Shown here: piece after piece, positions 19,694-27,371 of the stretch
Numbering within the stretch: position 1 is the stretch's first letter
Layout: the number at the start of each line of letters is the position of its first letter
IMG/VR virus record: IMGVR_UViG_3300025759_000554
Location: 1 to 27,371 of that record
Source: a virus
Strand: one strand, 5' to 3'
Length of the DNA: 27,371 bases
Program-made: the position numbers and the translations under genes
Notes under the pieces: model-generated
Told to the model about the DNA's origin: nothing
The model's input: only the letters and a program-made list of their open reading frames with translations
The model's database searches: none

Positions 19694-20687
19694 AACTAAA
19701 TTCCTTTCGAGCAATATCGTCCAATTGTAGCATTACTTCCTCAGTAAAGTAAACCTCTGGTTCTTTAAGAATTTGCTTTGCGTAAATTTTCTTACCATTC
19801 ATTTCATAACGACCTGCGACATTCTTCCAAAGTCCACCGATCTCACCGAGTTCAAGAAGACCGTAATATCTATCAAGACCACGCTCATCATAATAAAGAC
19901 GTATTTCCACATCTTTGTTCTCCTTACTCAAACGCGACTTAGCAGTCTTAGCTTTGATAATATTGCCGATAACTTCTGTTCCATCCTTTTCTTTCTTTTT
20001 GCTGAGATAAATGATTGAAGAGGCTGCGTACTTGAGTCCACTGCCTCCACCCATTTCTTTAGTTGGTACATAAGCTCCGATAACATCGTAGGTGTGATTT
20101 GTAACGATCATTGGAATTTTTGCTTGACCAAGTTTAAGAGTAAGCATTCGGAATGCGCCCTTTACAAGTTGAGATTTGGTCATATCCCTAACTTGCTTTT
20201 CATTTAGAGCATCAGTAATCTCCTTCTCAGTTGAAAGCATTCCCAGAGAGTCTAACACAAACATACAAGGTTTGCGTTCTTCTTCTGGTTTCTTGAGGTA
20301 TATATCTACTGCCTTAAGTGCTTTGCTACGAAAGTCTTCAATAGTTACAACATTCACAACTACAAGACGAGAGGTGTCAATACCCCTAGATTCAAGTAGG
20401 GACTTGGTAATAGCTGCCTCAGTATCAAAATAGAGACAATAACCATCGGGATTGGAATTGAGAAAATTCTTAACAACGGCGAGGCTGAAGAAAGTCTTTC
20501 CAGTAGAAGACTCTCCAGCAATAGCAGTAATCTTATTCCCAGATACACCACCAAATACACTACCTGAAACCAGTGCGTTAAAGATGTAAGAACCCGTATC
20601 AACATAAGTTTCAGTCTCATCAATGTCTGCTGCAAGTTTAGTGAAATCATCACCAATCTCTTTTACAATATCCTTTAAAAAATCCAT
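19680..20687 (-). CDS. uvsX: UvsX, RecA-like recombinase
   Basis: The 335-aa T4-type strand-exchange protein drives recombination and recombination-dependent replication. The Walker A site AGESSTGKTFF is at about residues 57-67, with Walker B in CMFVLDSLG. MGGGSGLKYAASSI resembles the DNA-binding loop region. It starts at ATG 20687 with TTGGAGG upstream. It lies 17 bases after gp43 and overlaps gp41, so the three genes form one replication/recombination operon. Confidence 0.96.
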   Translation of the reverse strand: MDFLKDIVKEIGDDFTKLAADIDETETYVDTGSYIFNALVSGSVFGGVSGNKITAIAGESSTGKTFFSLAVVKNFLNSNPDGYCLYFDTEAAITKSLLESRGIDTSRLVVVNVVTIEDFRSKALKAVDIYLKKPEEERKPCMFVLDSLGMLSTEKEITDALNEKQVRDMTKSQLVKGAFRMLTLKLGQAKIPMIVTNHTYDVIGAYVPTKEMGGGSGLKYAASSIIYLSKKKEKDGTEVIGNIIKAKTAKSRLSKENKDVEIRLYYDERGLDRYYGLLELGEIGGLWKNVAGRYEMNGKKIYAKQILKEPEVYFTEEVMLQLDDIARKEFSYGEG

Positions 20688-20704
20688 ACTTTACCTCCAA
20701 TATA

Positions 20705-23200
20705 TTACGAAAAGAATGATTCTAGACTAGATGTTTTTTCTACTTTCCATCCAATAGAATCCAAAATAGTTTTGAGTGGTTCAACAAAACTTTTCTCAAA
20801 CTGTAGATCATAATCAACATATTGTTGAAGATTCAGTTCCTTTGGAAACTCCTGAATAAAAGAAATTACATTTTCATAAATCGAATTTGGTTTTTTGAGA
20901 TAACAAAACTTGATTTTTTCACCATTCTGAATAAGTGAATATTTATTTGCAAGTTTATTCTGTTTAATATAGTGATTAAACAGAAGTGCTCCCCTTACAT
21001 GAATAGGAGTTCCCTTAGAATAAATCGATGAAGAAGACTGATACTTTACAACATCAGATACACTTCTTGGGAATGCAATTTCTTCAGGAGAAAGTTTCTT
21101 GAACTTTGATCTAGAAGACTCTATGAAATTAATGACTTCATCTTCAGTTCCAGTCATCATCAACTTAAGAGCATCCTTAATCATCTTACGACAAGGAGCA
21201 GGTGTCGAAGACTTAACTGCCTCAATACCCATAATCTTAAGTTTAGGTTCAGAATAGCGAACACCTTCACTATCCCATACATTGAGAATGTATCGCTTCT
21301 TCGCAGTCCAAATACCACGATCAGCAATATTCTCACGCTTCATTTGCATTTTTTGTTCGTAGGCATTGACGTACTCTGCCAATTCTTCGTAAGAACTTTG
21401 AATATACTTTTCAAATTCCACCTTACAGACCTTATCAAGGAATGAGACAACTTTCTCATTAGTTTTCTCTCTGCCTTTGAATACACTGTCAACCAGAGGA
21501 CCCATATTGAGGTAGATAGAATCAGTATCAGAAGCAATAACGTAATCAACATCTTTCGTTCTCAGAGCTTTGTTAATGTGTTTGTTTACTTTACTTTCAA
21601 TCCAACGAATAGACACTTGCCCAGAAAGCGTGATTGCTTCCGCATTAGCAAGTTTATAGTATCGGAAATATTGATTTCCAATAGCACCATAAGCGGAGTT
21701 AAGAGAAATCTTCTTTGCCATCTGAATATTATTACAGCGGGCAATCTCTTTCTCCAACTCTTTTGTTGGAGTTATTTGATACTGCTGCTTAGCAGCAAGC
21801 ATCTTCTTTTTAAAGATTACACGGTCACCATACATCTTCTCCATAAGTTCTGGAAGCATACCCTTAACATCCTTGCGGTACATTGCTCCATTAGCACATA
21901 CCGCATTGTCCTTATACATCTCAAAACTGATCTCTTGATCAAGAATTTTATTTACAGTAACTGTGGGATGCTTTTCTTCCAAAAGAGTTTCGGGAGAAAT
22001 ATTATATTGCATGATTAGGTGAGGATATAGAGAGTTCAAGTCAAAACTAACCACCCAATCATACACACCAGGAATAGGTTCTTTTACATAAGCACCAGCA
22101 TACTTTTCACTCTTATTCTCTCTCTTCTTTGGGGGAATTACAATATCACGTTTCTTAAGATAGTTGTAAATGATATTGTCCCACATACGAACTTGATAAA
22201 ACACATCAGCATAATTCACCTTTGCGTCATATGCCATGGTCAAAGCAAGTTCAATAAGTTTCATCTTGTCTTCCAAGCGGTCAACAAGTTCCACGTCAAC
22301 AATGTTGTATTCAATAAACTTCTGCCATCCTTGAGTATAGAAGTCCTTAAAGGTATCAAACTCAGAGTGGTCAAGTTTCTTCTGACCAAGTTCTACTTCT
22401 GCAATGTAGTCTAGGCGATATGATTCTTGTGCCTTATAAGTAAACTTTTTATAAAGATCAAGATAATCAAGTTGAGTCAAACCACCAACATCAAATGTTG
22501 TGTGCTTACGTCCCATCATCTCAACACTACCTTCTGTCACAAGTCCCCAGTTAGAGAACCTTTTCATCAGTTTCTCGCCAAGAACTCTATTAAGACGCTT
22601 ACAAATATAAGGAACGTCATATAGTTGAATGTTCCATCCGGTCACAACATCCGGAACATTATACATCCAATAGTTAATAAATGAACTTAAAAGTTCATAC
22701 TCAGTTGGGCAATGATGATATGTCACATTTGACTGTTTATTGATAAAGGGTTTTGCCCCCCAAGTAATAATTTCCTTTGTAGTGTAATCTTGAATAGTGA
22801 TAGCAAGAATTTCTTCCACACAAGATTCAACATCAGGGAATCCCTGTTCAGAAGCAACCTCAATGTCAATGGTTACAAGTTTGATTTTACTAATGTCAAA
22901 CTTAATTTCATCCTCAGGATACTTTTCAGAAATATATTGGTAGATATATCTATCGTTTCCATAGATCTCAAATCCCTCAACACCTTCATACTTATTATAA
23001 AACTCCCTACAATCTCTGACTGTTCCTGGTTTAATTGGTTCTACGGTTTCTCCTTGAAGAGTTTTATGTTTACTATCCTTCTTAGACTTTACAAATAGAG
23101 TTGGAAAAAATTCTTCTTTGGTTTCAAATCTTTTTCCATTCTTAACTCCACGAACCAAAATATTGTTTCCAATCAACTGAACATTTGTATAAAAATTCAT
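20705..23200 (-). CDS. 43: T4-like DNA polymerase gp43 (family B)
   Basis: The 831-aa replicative polymerase has proofreading. Exonuclease site: IDIEVASEQG (D112, E114). Polymerase motif A: SFDLNSLYPHLI (D387, SLYP 390-393). Motif B: NSAYGAIGNQYF (501 on). Motif C: ASDTDSIYLN (D558, D560). The C-terminal end SLESFFS should contact the sliding clamp. The ATG overlaps the stop of the small gene upstream (TAATG). Length is usual for the phage family, and all core residues are present. Confidence 0.97.
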   Translation of the reverse strand: MNFYTNVQLIGNNILVRGVKNGKRFETKEEFFPTLFVKSKKDSKHKTLQGETVEPIKPGTVRDCREFYNKYEGVEGFEIYGNDRYIYQYISEKYPEDEIKFDISKIKLVTIDIEVASEQGFPDVESCVEEILAITIQDYTTKEIITWGAKPFINKQSNVTYHHCPTEYELLSSFINYWMYNVPDVVTGWNIQLYDVPYICKRLNRVLGEKLMKRFSNWGLVTEGSVEMMGRKHTTFDVGGLTQLDYLDLYKKFTYKAQESYRLDYIAEVELGQKKLDHSEFDTFKDFYTQGWQKFIEYNIVDVELVDRLEDKMKLIELALTMAYDAKVNYADVFYQVRMWDNIIYNYLKKRDIVIPPKKRENKSEKYAGAYVKEPIPGVYDWVVSFDLNSLYPHLIMQYNISPETLLEEKHPTVTVNKILDQEISFEMYKDNAVCANGAMYRKDVKGMLPELMEKMYGDRVIFKKKMLAAKQQYQITPTKELEKEIARCNNIQMAKKISLNSAYGAIGNQYFRYYKLANAEAITLSGQVSIRWIESKVNKHINKALRTKDVDYVIASDTDSIYLNMGPLVDSVFKGREKTNEKVVSFLDKVCKVEFEKYIQSSYEELAEYVNAYEQKMQMKRENIADRGIWTAKKRYILNVWDSEGVRYSEPKLKIMGIEAVKSSTPAPCRKMIKDALKLMMTGTEDEVINFIESSRSKFKKLSPEEIAFPRSVSDVVKYQSSSSIYSKGTPIHVRGALLFNHYIKQNKLANKYSLIQNGEKIKFCYLKKPNSIYENVISFIQEFPKELNLQQYVDYDLQFEKSFVEPLKTILDSIGWKVEKTSSLESFFS

Positions 23201-23451
23201 TACTTAGTAAGATCTTCGTATTTTTTCAAGAGTTTTTCAGAGGGTTCAGCAATAGTGAGGATTTTATCAGAGGATATCATAAAGGTATCCTGACTAGAAA
23301 AATCAATCAACCATGGAGATAAAGTTTCATTTGACTGATTTAACAAAAATGGTTTTGTAAGTTTACAGTCAGGCTCACCAATATCACCACCAACTTCCTC
23401 AATACCAGAAACAAGTACTTGATTATTTGTCAGTAAAAGTAACTTCGTCAT
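23200..23451 (-). CDS. Small replication-region protein C (83 aa)
   Basis: From ATG 23451 it reads MTKLLLLTNNQVLVSGIEEV, then GGDIGEPDCKLTKPFLLN, then SSDKILTIAEPSEKLLKKYE. An AAAGGAA site lies just before the ATG; the start at 23478 has none. It is a beta-rich domain of Sm-like pattern and a distant paralogue of the genes at 23423-23755 and 26743-27030 (shared KL start, P-x-L/W-x core and '..EP...KL...Y' end). It overlaps both gp43 (1 base) and the upstream gene (29 bases). Role unknown; the gp43 context suggests replication. Confidence 0.75.
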   Translation of the reverse strand: MTKLLLLTNNQVLVSGIEEVGGDIGEPDCKLTKPFLLNQSNETLSPWLIDFSSQDTFMISSDKILTIAEPSEKLLKKYEDLTK

Positions 23452-23755
23452 TTTCCTTTTTCCTATTTTCAACTTCACTAGTATACATTTCCATCAATCT
23501 ATCTATCGGTTCTGTGATAGTAATTACCCAATCCATTGGAACTGGTATTTTTTTATCCTTTGTCAAGGGAATCCATGAAGATAGTCCAATTTGATATCCT
23601 TCCTTACCATCTATTTCAGAAGTAAACCTACGCAATTTTACAGAACAAGGATTTGAAAATAAATACCCAATCAAATTATCCTGGCCAGTAAACATTTCAT
23701 TGACATCCGCAATAATGTCTTCACCAGATTTTAAAAGAACAAGTTTTATAGTCAT
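23423..23755 (-). CDS. Small replication-region protein B (110 aa)
   Basis: It reads MTIKLVLLKSGEDIIADVNE, then IGYLFSNPCSVKLRR, then GLSSWIPLTKDKKIPVP and ITEPIDRLMEMY. Shared features with the 95-aa protein at 26743-27030: 'KL...SGED.IAD' at the start, 'NP', 'W.PL', and a Y-containing end. It is probably a beta-barrel domain of the Sm-like kind. The promoter at 23778-23806 precedes it. Function unknown. Confidence 0.8.
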   Translation of the reverse strand: MTIKLVLLKSGEDIIADVNEMFTGQDNLIGYLFSNPCSVKLRRFTSEIDGKEGYQIGLSSWIPLTKDKKIPVPMDWVITITEPIDRLMEMYTSEVENRKKENDEVTFTDK

Positions 23756-23777
23756 TTCTTATTGCATTCTCCACTAC

Positions 23778-23806
23778 ATTCTACCAACAAAAAAGGGAGG
23801 CGTCAA
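23778..23806 (-). promoter_or_regulatory. Sigma70-type promoter, TTGACG-17-TAGAAT
   Basis: The -35 TTGACG is at 23801-23806 and the -10 TAGAAT at 23778-23783, spacer 17. It overlaps the right arm and U-tract of the terminator at 23788-23828. It is the start of the gp43-uvsX-gp41 operon. Confidence 0.75.
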
Positions 23807-23828
23807 CTGGATTGTGCCAGTTACCTCC
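23788..23828 (-). terminator. Intrinsic terminator
   Basis: On the minus strand GGGAGG / CCTCCC with AACTGG / CCAGTT inside, then TTTTTT. It ends the hsp20 and micro-peptide transcript. Confidence 0.85.
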
Positions 23829-23927
23829 CTGTCTGCGCCGACGATACTTACTATGTAGTAAGGTTTTGTATTATCTTTGCTGTCCAACCTTTATGCGATT
23901 TTTTTCCATTCAGGTATTCTTATTTAT

Positions 23928-24002
23928 TTACTTTTTAGGTGTAATTGCGAATGCTCCTCCCATTACAGCAGAAAAGATTGTGAGTGTTGCTAAGATTCCC
24001 AT
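23928..24002 (-). CDS. Possible membrane micro-peptide (24 aa)
   Basis: ATG 24002 encodes MGILATLTIFSAVMGGAFAI plus TPKK, one hydrophobic segment with a basic end. It follows the 27-aa frame by 13 bases, but has no clear ribosome-binding site. AATAAATA at 23921-23928 overlaps its stop. The combination of two adjacent membrane micro-peptides raises its credibility. Function unknown. Confidence 0.4.
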   Translation of the reverse strand: MGILATLTIFSAVMGGAFAITPKK

Positions 24003-24015
24003 GGTTCAACAAGTA

Positions 24016-24099
24016 TTATGGTAGTGCGTTTGCGATAGGGACACCGATAAAAAGAGTCATCAGTGTTCCAAATACTAGGGTAGTGGCGGTGTAGTTCAT
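24016..24099 (-). CDS. Membrane micro-peptide (27 aa)
   Basis: ATG 24099 is preceded by GGAGGACGG, an excellent ribosome-binding site. It encodes MNYTATTLVFGTLMTLFIGV plus PIANALP, a single membrane span. Possible promoter TATAAT at 24131-24136, with palindrome 24139-24153 just upstream. It does not resemble any small photosystem or cytochrome b6f subunit I can recall. Unknown function. Confidence 0.55.
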   Translation of the reverse strand: MNYTATTLVFGTLMTLFIGVPIANALP

Positions 24100-24130
24100 A
24101 GTCCGTCCTCCAAAGTACATAACTATCTAT

Positions 24131-24153
24131 ATTATACTGTATCACTGTGATAC
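24131..24153 (-). promoter_or_regulatory. Possible promoter with palindromic operator
   Basis: TATAAT on the minus strand (24131-24136) lies next to the palindrome GTATCACAGTGATAC (24139-24153, 7-base perfect arms). No -35 consensus is present, so the palindrome may bind a repressor or an activator. It is the only sequence of this type seen in the window. Confidence 0.5.
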
Positions 24154-24198
24154 ACTTCTGTATTCATTGCTACGCATTTATACCTATTGTGTTAGGAT

Positions 24199-24633
24199 TT
24201 ATAGATAATCTTTTCTCTGGTGGTGCTCTGGCACGATCTTTCCCAACACAATTGTTAGAAGCCCATCTTCAAAAGTAACTGATCTAACTTCCGTGTCATC
24301 AGAGAGTGTCCAGGCACGATTAAATGACCGTTGAGCCAAACCTTTGTGCAAATACTTGGTTTCTGTTTCCTTATCCTCTTTCTGGCCCTCAACAAAGAGT
24401 TTACCATCTTGGGTGTAGACATAAACTTCCTCCTTCTTGAATCCTGCTAAAGCAAGTTCAAGTCGAGATTCCACATTGCTGACCTGAACTAGATTGTATG
24501 GTGGATAATTTGACGTGGTTTCGTGAAGTTTAAACACACGTTCAAAGTATTCATCCAAACCAATACTATTTCTATTTATCTTGTCCATGAGAGAAGACAA
24601 GTCAGCACTAGTATACCTTGTAAGGTTAGTCAT
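24199..24633 (-). CDS. hsp20: Hsp20/IbpA-type small heat-shock protein (144 aa)
   Basis: From ATG 24633 it reads MTNLTRYTSADLSSLMDKIN. The alpha-crystallin domain (about residues 44-133) contains YNLVQVSN, LELALAGFKKEEV, KLFVEGQKED, GLAQRSFNRAWTL and FEDGLLTIVL, the ordered strands of this family. Such proteins hold unfolding proteins without ATP. The AAGGAGCTACAATA site before ATG 24633 decides the start; the frame extends upstream to 24690 without one. The terminator at 24711-24744 separates it from regA. Carried by many T4-like cyanophages. Confidence 0.95.
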   Translation of the reverse strand: MTNLTRYTSADLSSLMDKINRNSIGLDEYFERVFKLHETTSNYPPYNLVQVSNVESRLELALAGFKKEEVYVYTQDGKLFVEGQKEDKETETKYLHKGLAQRSFNRAWTLSDDTEVRSVTFEDGLLTIVLGKIVPEHHQRKDYL

Positions 24634-24710
24634 TATTGTAGCTCCTTTTTTAAAGCGAGTTTGTGTTGTGTGAACCCTTTCGGCGTTCATTACTAATTAT
24701 GCGAGATAAC

Positions 24711-24744
24711 AAAAAAAGAGGAACGGCAATAACCGAACCTCTTT
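24711..24744 (-). terminator. Intrinsic terminator after regA
   Basis: On the minus strand AAAGAGG / CCTCTTT and CGG / CCG with a TT/TT internal loop, then a run of T. The arms are also complementary on the plus strand, but only the minus strand has the long T-run. It closes the gp44-gp62-regA transcript. Confidence 0.8.
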
Positions 24745-24794
24745 ATACGGTGTTCCGACTTTTGTAGAGTGCCGCACGAATGGCACAAAAATAT

Positions 24795-25232
24795 TTATGC
24801 CTCAGTAGTCTTTCCTTTCTTACCAATATTATACTTCTGTTCAAGAATCCAATCATTCTTATCCTTATAAGCAAGAACTTTAATTTGATTTAATGGAGCA
24901 ATATCGGTAGCAGAGTCTTCATTAACAAGAGTAATAAGACCCCAATCAACAAGAAGACGAATAATGCGATTACGACGCTGAACATCATTTACGCTAAGGT
25001 TTGCGTGCTTACCATCAAGTGCAAAAAGTTCTTTGAAATGAACAATATAATAACGTCCTTGTTTGTGAAGAATGTGGCAACTTTGATAGAGTTTTTTCTC
25101 CTTTCTAGATGCAACTCCAATACGAGTCAAAGTTTCGCGTACTTTAAGAAAGTCATCAGGTTCATTTAGAACAACTTCCACCATCATGTTTGAAGACCAC
25201 TCTACTTGTGGTTCGATTGTTTGATTAGTCAT
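24795..25232 (-). CDS. regA: RegA translational repressor (145 aa)
   Basis: It follows T4 RegA closely by eye: an N-terminal MMVEVVLNEPDDFLKVRETL, then KLYQSCHILHKQGRYYIVHF, a LFALDGKHANLSV stretch, RLLVDWGLITLV, and a YNIGKK end. RegA binds the ribosome-binding sites of early phage mRNAs and blocks their translation. It has about 12 more N-terminal residues than T4 RegA and a longer basic C-tail. It starts overlapping gp62 (ATGA). In T4 it represses its own operon; no site is certain here. Confidence 0.95.
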   Translation of the reverse strand: MTNQTIEPQVEWSSNMMVEVVLNEPDDFLKVRETLTRIGVASRKEKKLYQSCHILHKQGRYYIVHFKELFALDGKHANLSVNDVQRRNRIIRLLVDWGLITLVNEDSATDIAPLNQIKVLAYKDKNDWILEQKYNIGKKGKTTEA

Positions 25233-25615
25233 TTTTTTCCGCCTGTGTCAAGTCGTTGTTTGATAAAATCAATTTGTTGTTTATTTAGAATTTTCAAGGC
25301 CTGTAATGCTTTATCATTACTATATCCATAGTATTGTTTAATGCACTCTAAATCTTTGACCTTATCCTTTTGGAGCCAGGGAGAAAATCTCTTCCGTTTC
25401 CTCAGACTATTTAGGTAAAATGAATATTGCATATCCTTACTGAGACTATGATTCATATTCATTTCATTTGCATACATTATGCAATCTAGATGACCAGACA
25501 AACATCTGTTCACAATATATGGAGGATACTTACTTATAGAAGATGGATCCTCCTCAAGCAAATTTTGCTTTGTGTGGTTGATTGAGTTCAACCAATCTTT
25601 AAGTTCGTAACTCAT
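25229..25615 (-). CDS. 62: Clamp-loader small subunit gp62 (128 aa)
   Basis: It reads MSYELKDWLNSINHTKQNLL, then SKYPPYIVNRCLSGHLDCIM, then LNSLRKRKRFSPWLQK. This is the phage gp62 pattern ('YPP.IVN' and 'R.RKRFS.W'). It binds gp44 to load the sliding clamp gp45. The start overlaps the stop of the Mom-like gene (ATGA) and the end overlaps regA. It is shorter than T4 gp62 (187 aa), as in cyanophages. Confidence 0.92.
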   Translation of the reverse strand: MSYELKDWLNSINHTKQNLLEEDPSSISKYPPYIVNRCLSGHLDCIMYANEMNMNHSLSKDMQYSFYLNSLRKRKRFSPWLQKDKVKDLECIKQYYGYSNDKALQALKILNKQQIDFIKQRLDTGGKK

Positions 25616-26727
25616 CGAATAATCTGAATATTGTCATCTTCTGTCCAGAGTTCGACCTTTGTTCTGAACCTATCTTCTTGCTTGAGTTTTTCATACCTCT
25701 TTGTTGCTTTCTTTTTCCACCAAGAAGTAATATTTTCTAAGTAGAATTTATCCCAATTAGGGCCTCGAAGAAGTTGATCCTGTTCTCCAAGAATTACTTC
25801 ACGAACATTTGAGTACCCATAATCAGAGATATAGAATCTCTTCTTCTGAGTCAGATTAAATGCTGCACCAATAACAGAATTAAATTCTGCAAGTTTATCC
25901 TTATCTTGAAGAGAGTTTCTGATGATAGAAATCATTTTTGTCTGTCTCTTCATCTTTTTGGATGATGCTTTTTTATCCGTAAGTGGAGTATTGTTGTTCA
26001 ATAGAGTGAACCTATCATGAAGTCTATGAAAAACTTCATCGTGCAAAAGTGGTAGAAACTTACTTTCAGTAAGACCTTTATATCTCATATATGGTTTAAG
26101 ACCATCATATTGAGATGCATCTGTGGTAGATCCATAAAGAGAAGTTGTTTCAAATAAAGCAATATCTTTCTCAAATACTTTATTCAAAGTCTCTCTAGCA
26201 AAATGGGAACAGCAAAGAAGTGCTAAGAACTTACCGCCAAGATAATTATATCCAAAAGGTTGAGATGGAACAATCACAAATCCCATAGCTGCGTGTCTGT
26301 TAAAAATTGAAAGATTAGGTGCCTTTCCCAACCAAACATTTCTTGGTTTTGAGTTGATAGTTGGAGACCCGAAACGGATAAATCCAACAACACCTTTAGT
26401 ATTCTTCTCATAGATAACCCAACGCAATTCTCTACCAGGAATATTTGCTTCATTATTATGTGAAGAAACTGCCTTCAATAGAGTGTTATAGTGCTCCTGC
26501 GGAACAGATTTTTGAAATCTATCACCAACAAACTTAATATCAAACTCCATATCCTGAGGATGGATGTCTTCATTGAAGAATTCATCTTCAAGAGAAAAGA
26601 GCATATTACTTGACTTAATTACCTCCATTTTTACAAATCGAAGATAATCTTCAATATTACCCATTTGGGAAAAGTATTTTATAAATTCATCAGCTGCCCA
26701 AACAGCATCATTCTCACTTACTATCAT
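25612..26727 (-). CDS. DUF4338/Mom-like protein in the clamp-loader operon (371 aa)
   Basis: The core at about residues 100-215 has LRWVIYEKNTKGVVGFIRFG, SPTINSKPRNVWLG, FNRHAAMGFVIVPSQPFGYN, LGGKFLALLCCSHFARE, LFETTSLYGSTTDASQYDGL and YMRYKGLTES. This order ('VG...F.SP', 'WLG', 'R....F.I.P', an 'LFET' strand, a 'Y...G' turn) resembles the GNAT-fold region of DUF4338 (DruA) and Mu Mom proteins. That is a pattern judgement, not a search. If right, it may modify a base or a protein. A basic/aromatic C-terminus (WWKKKATKRYEKLKQEDRFR) follows. It sits between the gp44-adjacent small protein and gp62, where T4 has no gene. Confidence 0.75.
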   Translation of the reverse strand: MIVSENDAVWAADEFIKYFSQMGNIEDYLRFVKMEVIKSSNMLFSLEDEFFNEDIHPQDMEFDIKFVGDRFQKSVPQEHYNTLLKAVSSHNNEANIPGRELRWVIYEKNTKGVVGFIRFGSPTINSKPRNVWLGKAPNLSIFNRHAAMGFVIVPSQPFGYNYLGGKFLALLCCSHFARETLNKVFEKDIALFETTSLYGSTTDASQYDGLKPYMRYKGLTESKFLPLLHDEVFHRLHDRFTLLNNNTPLTDKKASSKKMKRQTKMISIIRNSLQDKDKLAEFNSVIGAAFNLTQKKRFYISDYGYSNVREVILGEQDQLLRGPNWDKFYLENITSWWKKKATKRYEKLKQEDRFRTKVELWTEDDNIQIIR

Positions 26728-26742
26728 AATATTTTTAACTAT

Positions 26743-27030
26743 TCAAAGAATAAGTTTTTTAGATGGGGTAGCAATTGTAGAGAACATTTGAGTATATTGA
26801 TCTACAATATCTTCTTGAGTTTCTGCAACATAAACAACATAAGATTTCTTTACTTTAATTTCTTCTCCCTTACCCTTGAGAAGCGGAGACCACGGTGCAA
26901 ATCCCATCTGACCTTGACCAGCAGGAATAGCAACAATAGGATTAACAACAATAATAGTATCATCATTGTCTCTAATTAAATCAGCGATTACATCTTCGCC
27001 AGACCACATACGAATCAGTTTTACGTTCAT
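26743..27030 (-). CDS. Small replication-region protein A (95 aa)
   Basis: It reads MNVKLIRMWSGEDVIADLIR, then IIVVNPIVAIPAGQGQMGFA, then PWSPLLKGKGEEIKVKKSYV. Shared features with the protein at 23423-23755 mark it as a paralogue ('KL..+.SGED.IAD', 'NP', 'W.PL', a Y-ending helix). Beta-rich, likely Sm-like. It is 6 bases after the gp44 stop. Function unknown. Confidence 0.8.
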   Translation of the reverse strand: MNVKLIRMWSGEDVIADLIRDNDDTIIVVNPIVAIPAGQGQMGFAPWSPLLKGKGEEIKVKKSYVVYVAETQEDIVDQYTQMFSTIATPSKKLIL

Positions 27031-27036
27031 AGTTCT

Positions 27037-27371
27037 TTACTTAAAATTACATTCAACCATAACTTCTGTTAGCGCCGCCAGAAGATTAATTTCTTGATCT
27101 GCGACGAACGCGATCTGATACTGATACTTAGCAATAATAAGCACAGCAGCAGGAACGCTATTGTTTTCAAGGGATGTAACAAGAGCATCGTAAATACGAC
27201 GCAAAAGTACCCCAGAATCATTGTCCAAATTATTAACGACCCACTTTCGAACTTCGGTGAAGTTCTTTTCTTTGAGACTTTTAATGAGATCATTGATGTT
27301 TACGTCAGAGAATGAAGCTAAAATCGCAGAATCAATCTTACCGCCAGTAGAATACCTTTGGCACTCATTTA
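27037..27371 (-). CDS. 44: Clamp-loader large subunit gp44, C-terminal part
   Basis: The frame is open to the window edge and reads NECQRYSTGGKIDSAILAS, then NFTEVRKWVVNNLD, then NSVPAAVLIIAKYQYQIA and EINLLAALTEVMVECNFK. This is the collar/C-terminal domain of the RFC-type clamp loader. The Walker motifs would lie outside the window. It is the ATPase that, with gp62, loads the gp45 clamp. The position next to gp62 and regA agrees. The start and the N-terminal ATPase domain are not seen. Confidence 0.88.
   Translation of the reverse strand, partial: NECQRYSTGGKIDSAILASFSDVNINDLIKSLKEKNFTEVRKWVVNNLDNDSGVLLRRIYDALVTSLENNSVPAAVLIIAKYQYQIAFVADQEINLLAALTEVMVECNFK

Follow-up and report, generated by a model that had tools for sequence, protein, structure and literature searches.

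Many cyanobacterial viruses of the ocean carry, within their DNA-copying gene cluster, either a Dam-type methylase or an unrelated, DruA-like enzyme of acyltransferase type. Analysis of a 27-kb virus record (27,371 nucleotides; hereafter the window) revealed a member of the second type directly before gp62, and comparison with related phages showed that the two genes are cleanly swapped between related backbones, at least five times on supported branches of a phylogenetic tree. The encoded protein is a DruA-lineage GNAT whose likeness to Mom is confined to the fold, a likeness that many other GNATs share. Its regular exchange with dam leads us to propose that the DruA-like protein probably also marks virus DNA.

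The DruA-like gene and its operon

The open reading frame at 25612-26727 (minus strand, ATG start) encodes a DruA/DUF4338-lineage, GNAT-fold protein of 371 amino acids and matches PHROG 19197 over its full length (542 bits); this family, annotated without a function, is named T4-like GC 1216 in cyanophage records. Members from S-SM2, S-SSM7 and HTVC008M belong to the same family over their full length, with no difference from the window gene, and are recorded as 'putative cytoplasmic protein'; database labels for the family are inconsistent, with one entry reading 'methylcarbamoylase mom' and another 'iron-binding protein'. Pairwise comparison with relatives of ~84-88% protein identity yielded a dN of ~0.09-0.11 and a dS of ~1.7 or more, or saturated, indicating strong purifying selection and thus a gene that is functional and constrained.

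The neighbourhood comprises gp44, gp62, regA, hsp20 and gp43. On one side lie a small conserved orphan adjacent to gp44 (26743-27030, minus strand; PHROG 527), which was also found 5' of dam in a second locus, and the C-terminus of the clamp-loader large subunit gp44 (27037-27369, minus strand; PHROG 168), which continues past the window edge. On the other side follow the clamp-loader small subunit gp62 (25229-25615, minus strand; PF16790, PHROG 225) and, overlapping it, the translational repressor RegA (24795-25232, minus strand; PF01818, PHROG 242). The first-pass annotation had placed a 371-residue gene between the gp44-adjacent protein and gp62 and had described an ATGA coupling to gp62; both were confirmed, the latter as a 4-nt stop/start overlap with the gp62 start codon (25612-25615, minus strand) that is also common in relatives. 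Its description of the gene as inserted in the clamp-loader operon applies in comparison with T4, relative to which the gene is extra. In Kyanoviridae, however, a gene is normally present at this position, dam being the commonest, and the window gene is better described as the DruA-like alternative in a slot found across the family. An Rfam search of positions 20000-27371 gave no match. As a separate observation, three small proteins near gp43 and gp62 (23200-23478, 23423-23755 and 26743-27030) belong to related families (DUF6561, PHROG 483, 431 and 527), which suggests that a family of orphans has expanded within the replication cluster.

The arrangement is widely conserved. The DruA-like gene was detected in 31 phage records, nearly all of them Kyanoviridae or relatives and including Pelagibacter phage HTVC008M, and the protein is encoded on at least 599 IMG/VR stretches. 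In 227 of the 246 loci with enough downstream sequence to test for gp62, gp62 is found no more than 1 kb downstream, the commonest overlaps being 4 nt (87 loci) and 1 nt (81 loci). Relocated copies occur in HTVC008M, between gp43 and uvsX, and in S-B68, near gp46/gp47.

Relationship to DruA and Mom

The likeness to DUF4338 (DruA) proposed in the first-pass annotation was borne out by sequence comparison. The Pfam DruA/DUF4338 model (PF14236) matches the protein with 30.3 bits at a cut-off of 27, and hhalign comparison of a 56-relative profile with bona fide DruA, encoded on plasmids in two operons that include a DEAD/DEAH helicase and Druantia-type neighbours, gave a probability of 98.1% (E 6e-14, 127 columns). 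As the PF14236 match covers profile positions 46-181 of 297 only, we use the label 'DruA-lineage' rather than 'a DruA'. In the named phages, 16 of 17 matches (16 phages) exceeded the cut-off, the S-T4 match remaining below it at 21.4 bits. PADLOC returned weak DruA1 matches only, a search of NCBIfam with the protein returned nothing useful, and a solved-structure sequence search with the protein and its profile returned chance matches only. DUF4338 has already been described as a GNAT domain (PMC10853773), and in the literature searched we found no activity assigned to DruA or DUF4338 beyond 'GNAT'.

Phage protein and DruA share a homologous GNAT core with the common motifs G(S/D)P..N...R(N/D), GGK and TTS..G...Y..LK, the respective phage and DruA versions being GSPTIN..PRN and GDPVFN..VRD, YN.LGGK and YNSLLGGK, and TTSLYG...SQYDGLK and TTSSMG...SVYNRLK. 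They differ in that the match is confined to approximately residues 65-223, flanked by phage-specific N- and C-terminal helical parts, and in that the phage gene sits in a replication operon: neither DruB-E nor the large helicase of a Druantia operon was found at the phage locus. A diverged DruA-like paralogue was also observed in marine phages (L084:5608-6906 in Mosig; L108:1159-2373 in HTVC008M, as a second copy) and on at least 478 IMG/VR stretches. It scores 65-80 bits against Pfam DruA, above the window protein, and in Mosig it covers PF14236 positions 60-296 and is surrounded by genes for 2OG-Fe(II) oxygenases, a phytanoyl-CoA dioxygenase, a peptide deformylase and MazG.

The absence of a GNAT/DUF4338 fold had been named beforehand as part of the grounds for giving up the idea; alongside the DUF4338 profile above its cut-off, a confident AlphaFold2 model was obtained (pLDDT 85.8, pTM 0.82). 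With few exceptions, the 50 top-ranking structures matched to it (Z 8.7-9.3) are GNATs, and the matches cover model residues 57-329. Foldseek searches against the PDB gave individually weak matches (best E 0.03), yet again almost all to GNATs, most of the matched GNATs being protein or small-molecule acetyltransferases. From the secondary structure of the model and these matches, the catalytic core is placed at approximately residues 60-220 (26068-26550, minus strand). Invariant residues are located in two elements, the loop after strand 4 and the strand-5/helix-4 motif. The former, QPFGYNYLGGK (residues 156-166 at the start of helix 3; 26230-26262, minus strand), contains Q156, P157, G159, N161, G164, G165 and K166 as invariant columns in 56 relatives, has PYNSLLGGK as its DruA counterpart and may form the pyrophosphate-binding loop for CoA. 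The latter, TTSLYG...SQYDGLK (residues 194-211; 26095-26148, minus strand), is conserved in the relatives and in DruA and is likely part of the active site.

The accompanying claim of Mom likeness stood at the level of the fold only. Mu Mom (crystal structure 8bv8), likewise a GNAT-fold phage protein, aligns structurally with the model over 167 residues (Z 9.0, 13% identity), but dozens of further GNATs score equally well (~50 comparable), and a Mom entry in BFVD (S4TTR0) matches with E 2e-3. Membership in the Mom sequence family was rejected, since PF25680 gave no match at E up to 1 although it scores Mu Mom with 253 bits, and hhalign returned a probability of 0.2% against a shallow Mom alignment of six close sequences. 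A true Mom-family gene does exist in S-SSM7 (GU071098.1:216832-217392; PF25680, 112.6 bits), as a gene separate from the DruA-like gene of the same phage. The best predicted-structure matches to the model in BFVD come from giant viruses (Faunusvirus, Yasminevirus and Dasosvirus; A0A3G4ZXG3 and others; TMq 0.46-0.64, E 1e-13 to 2e-8) and are better than any phage Mom.

Exchange of dam and the DruA-like gene

Examination of ten Kyanoviridae records without the DruA-like gene revealed a Dam methylase in the gp44-gp62 slot of nine (P-SSM2, P-SSM4, S-RIM2, S-RIM44, S-WAM1, P-TIM68, ACG-2014a, ACG-2014d and S-CAM1), while the tenth, ACG-2014f, has a slot without dam and encodes dam elsewhere in its genome. 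This Dam (MethyltransfD12, PF02086) occupies the same position directly before gp62, which it usually overlaps. Dam is a SAM-dependent methyltransferase, of a different family and fold class from the DruA-like GNAT. Further cargo of the slot includes glutaredoxin, a 2OG-Fe(II) oxygenase, endonuclease V, ferrochelatase and orphans; dam is often accompanied by such genes, so more than one gene can occupy the slot.

A gp62-anchored survey of an IMG/VR sample, ranked by similarity to P-TIM68 gp62, found dam in 40 slots, the DruA-like gene in 20, neither in 10 and both in none, with 5 uninformative. The exclusion extends to whole records: HMM searches with PF02086 detected a methylase in 1 of 16 DruA-like phages compared with 10 of 10 dam phages, and PF14236 was matched in all 16 DruA-like phages (15 above cut-off) and in 0 of 10 dam phages. 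Among 25 long IMG/VR contigs, none of the 19 that carry the DruA-like gene had a PF02086 match above cut-off, compared with 5 of the 6 that lack it; this sample includes fragments, so that a missing gene there is no proof of absence. Pooling these 51 phages and long contigs, a Dam-type methylase was present in 1 of the 35 that carry the DruA-like gene compared with 15 of the 16 that lack it (Fisher p 8e-11, uncorrected for descent). The absence of dam persists where the DruA-like gene has moved, as HTVC008M and S-B68 lack a D12 methylase, and the single exception is S-SCSM2R, which combines the DruA-like gene with a distant D12 methylase elsewhere. Methylases of PF01555 and PF00145 were absent from the 16 DruA-like phages; four dam phages carry an extra PF01555 methylase. 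Record counts are in keeping with the exchange: across cyanophage-named records, 461 match gp62, 414 Dam and 26 the DruA-like protein, counted from lists that were not cross-checked one by one. One contig with the DruA-like gene (L416) contains a sub-threshold D12 methylase fragment with an in-frame TGA (G018:77494-77679), possibly a decayed methylase.

In a tree of gp62 and RegA from 66 loci, the state of the slot requires ~20 changes, of which well-supported branches force 5 for the DruA-like gene and 6 for dam. The best tree contains 15 independent pairs and its supported branches 5, with dam as the opposite state in nearly every pairing; support for the tree is modest, a sign test on only five supported pairs could not become significant, and recombination within gp62-regA could inflate the numbers. 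The swap can be followed directly in two colinear loci (L019 with the DruA-like gene, L399 with dam), which share 77-89% DNA identity across both flanks, gp45-gp44 and gp62-regA, while the intervening druA-like and dam genes cannot be aligned with each other. We found no literature on such an exchange in cyanophages.

Proposed function and alternative explanations

Taken together, we consider it fairly probable that this DruA/DUF4338-lineage protein acts as a CoA-dependent DNA-base acyltransferase and replaces Dam on newly replicated phage DNA. DNA is inferred as the substrate because the DruA-like protein and a DNA methylase replace one another. The loop that follows strand 4 (N161..GGK166) would admit acyl-CoA, the TTSLYG/SQYD motif would complete the active site, and the target would perhaps be the N6 position of adenine, like that of Dam and Mom. 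Co-translation with gp62 would produce the enzyme beside the clamp loader, allowing progeny DNA to be marked during its synthesis, the benefit presumably being mainly the escape of progeny DNA from host restriction. The match of the predicted model to Mu Mom, a DNA-modifying GNAT, may be counted in support of DNA-base acylation; the weak single Foldseek matches and the tie of Mom with protein and small-molecule acetyltransferases appear to count against it, as do the presence of both genes in S-SCSM2R and of a true Mom in S-SSM7, the modest tree support and the equal GATC frequencies. As these two phages illustrate, the roles of the DruA-like protein and of Dam or Mom need not be fully redundant. 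The suggestion in the first-pass annotation of a link between replication and DNA modification finds further, independent backing in the mutually exclusive Dam in the same slot of sister phages; the modification itself remains a prediction.

The same GNAT fold could alternatively serve to acylate a protein, such as a component of host restriction or defence, RNA polymerase or the adjacent clamp loader, thereby aiding infection with the DNA left untouched. Most structurally matched GNATs are indeed protein or small-molecule acetyltransferases, and protein targets have been considered for DUF4338 fused to DndF (PMC10853773), but repeated, genome-wide, one-for-one exclusion with a DNA methylase is hard to explain without a common job, and we regard protein acylation as unlikely. 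Less likely still is that the position before gp62 is a mere recombination hot spot for any cargo, with the exclusion reflecting one cargo per slot. The unrelated occupants, such as glutaredoxin, the oxygenase, endonuclease V, ferrochelatase and orphans, speak for a hot spot and make position alone a weak argument for a shared function; however, the exclusion is genome-wide and survives relocation of dam in ACG-2014f and of the DruA-like gene in HTVC008M and S-B68, and additional cargo is often present in the slot alongside dam. Homology to DruA, and the occurrence of plasmid DruA genes in Druantia-type operons with a helicase, would also fit a decoy that joins and poisons a host Druantia complex. 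We judge such an inhibitor very improbable, as the relation to DruA is restricted to the GNAT core, the active-site-like residues are invariant where a decoy need not keep them, and the exchange with dam would be left unexplained.

Returning to DNA-base acylation, the repeated genome-wide exchange with a DNA adenine methylase yields a concrete prediction, namely that the substrate is DNA and probably adenine, through which the activity of DruA becomes testable in the cultured phages S-SM2, S-SSM7 and HTVC008M. If this holds, abundant ocean phages bear a DNA modification, for which we found no earlier search in the literature. More tentatively, and at somewhat less than even chances in our estimation, DUF4338/DruA might constitute an unrecognised class of DNA base acyltransferases, which marine T4-like phages would carry in the clamp-loader operon and use interchangeably with Dam for the marking of nascent DNA, and the DruA of Druantia might perform the same chemistry on DNA.

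Analysis of restriction-site words revealed no difference in GATC frequency between DruA-like and dam cyanophages in either set (named phages and IMG/VR contigs). GGCC was more mildly avoided in DruA-like phages (medians 0.72 vs 0.16 for dam; p 0.002, with 69 words tested), also in the second set (0.75 vs 0.46; p 0.04), a difference that is a hint only because hosts and descent are confounded, and CCGG differed between DruA-like and dam phages in the first set only. Nine of ten named dam cyanophages sampled have 0 CCGG sites in 60 kb, a pattern of strong avoidance that was not repeated in the IMG/VR dam contigs. Strong avoidance of GATC was observed in two pelagiphages, with observed/expected ratios of 0.22 in HTVC008M (L465, L491, L517) and 0.06 in Mosig (L468, L494, L520), and not in cyanophages.
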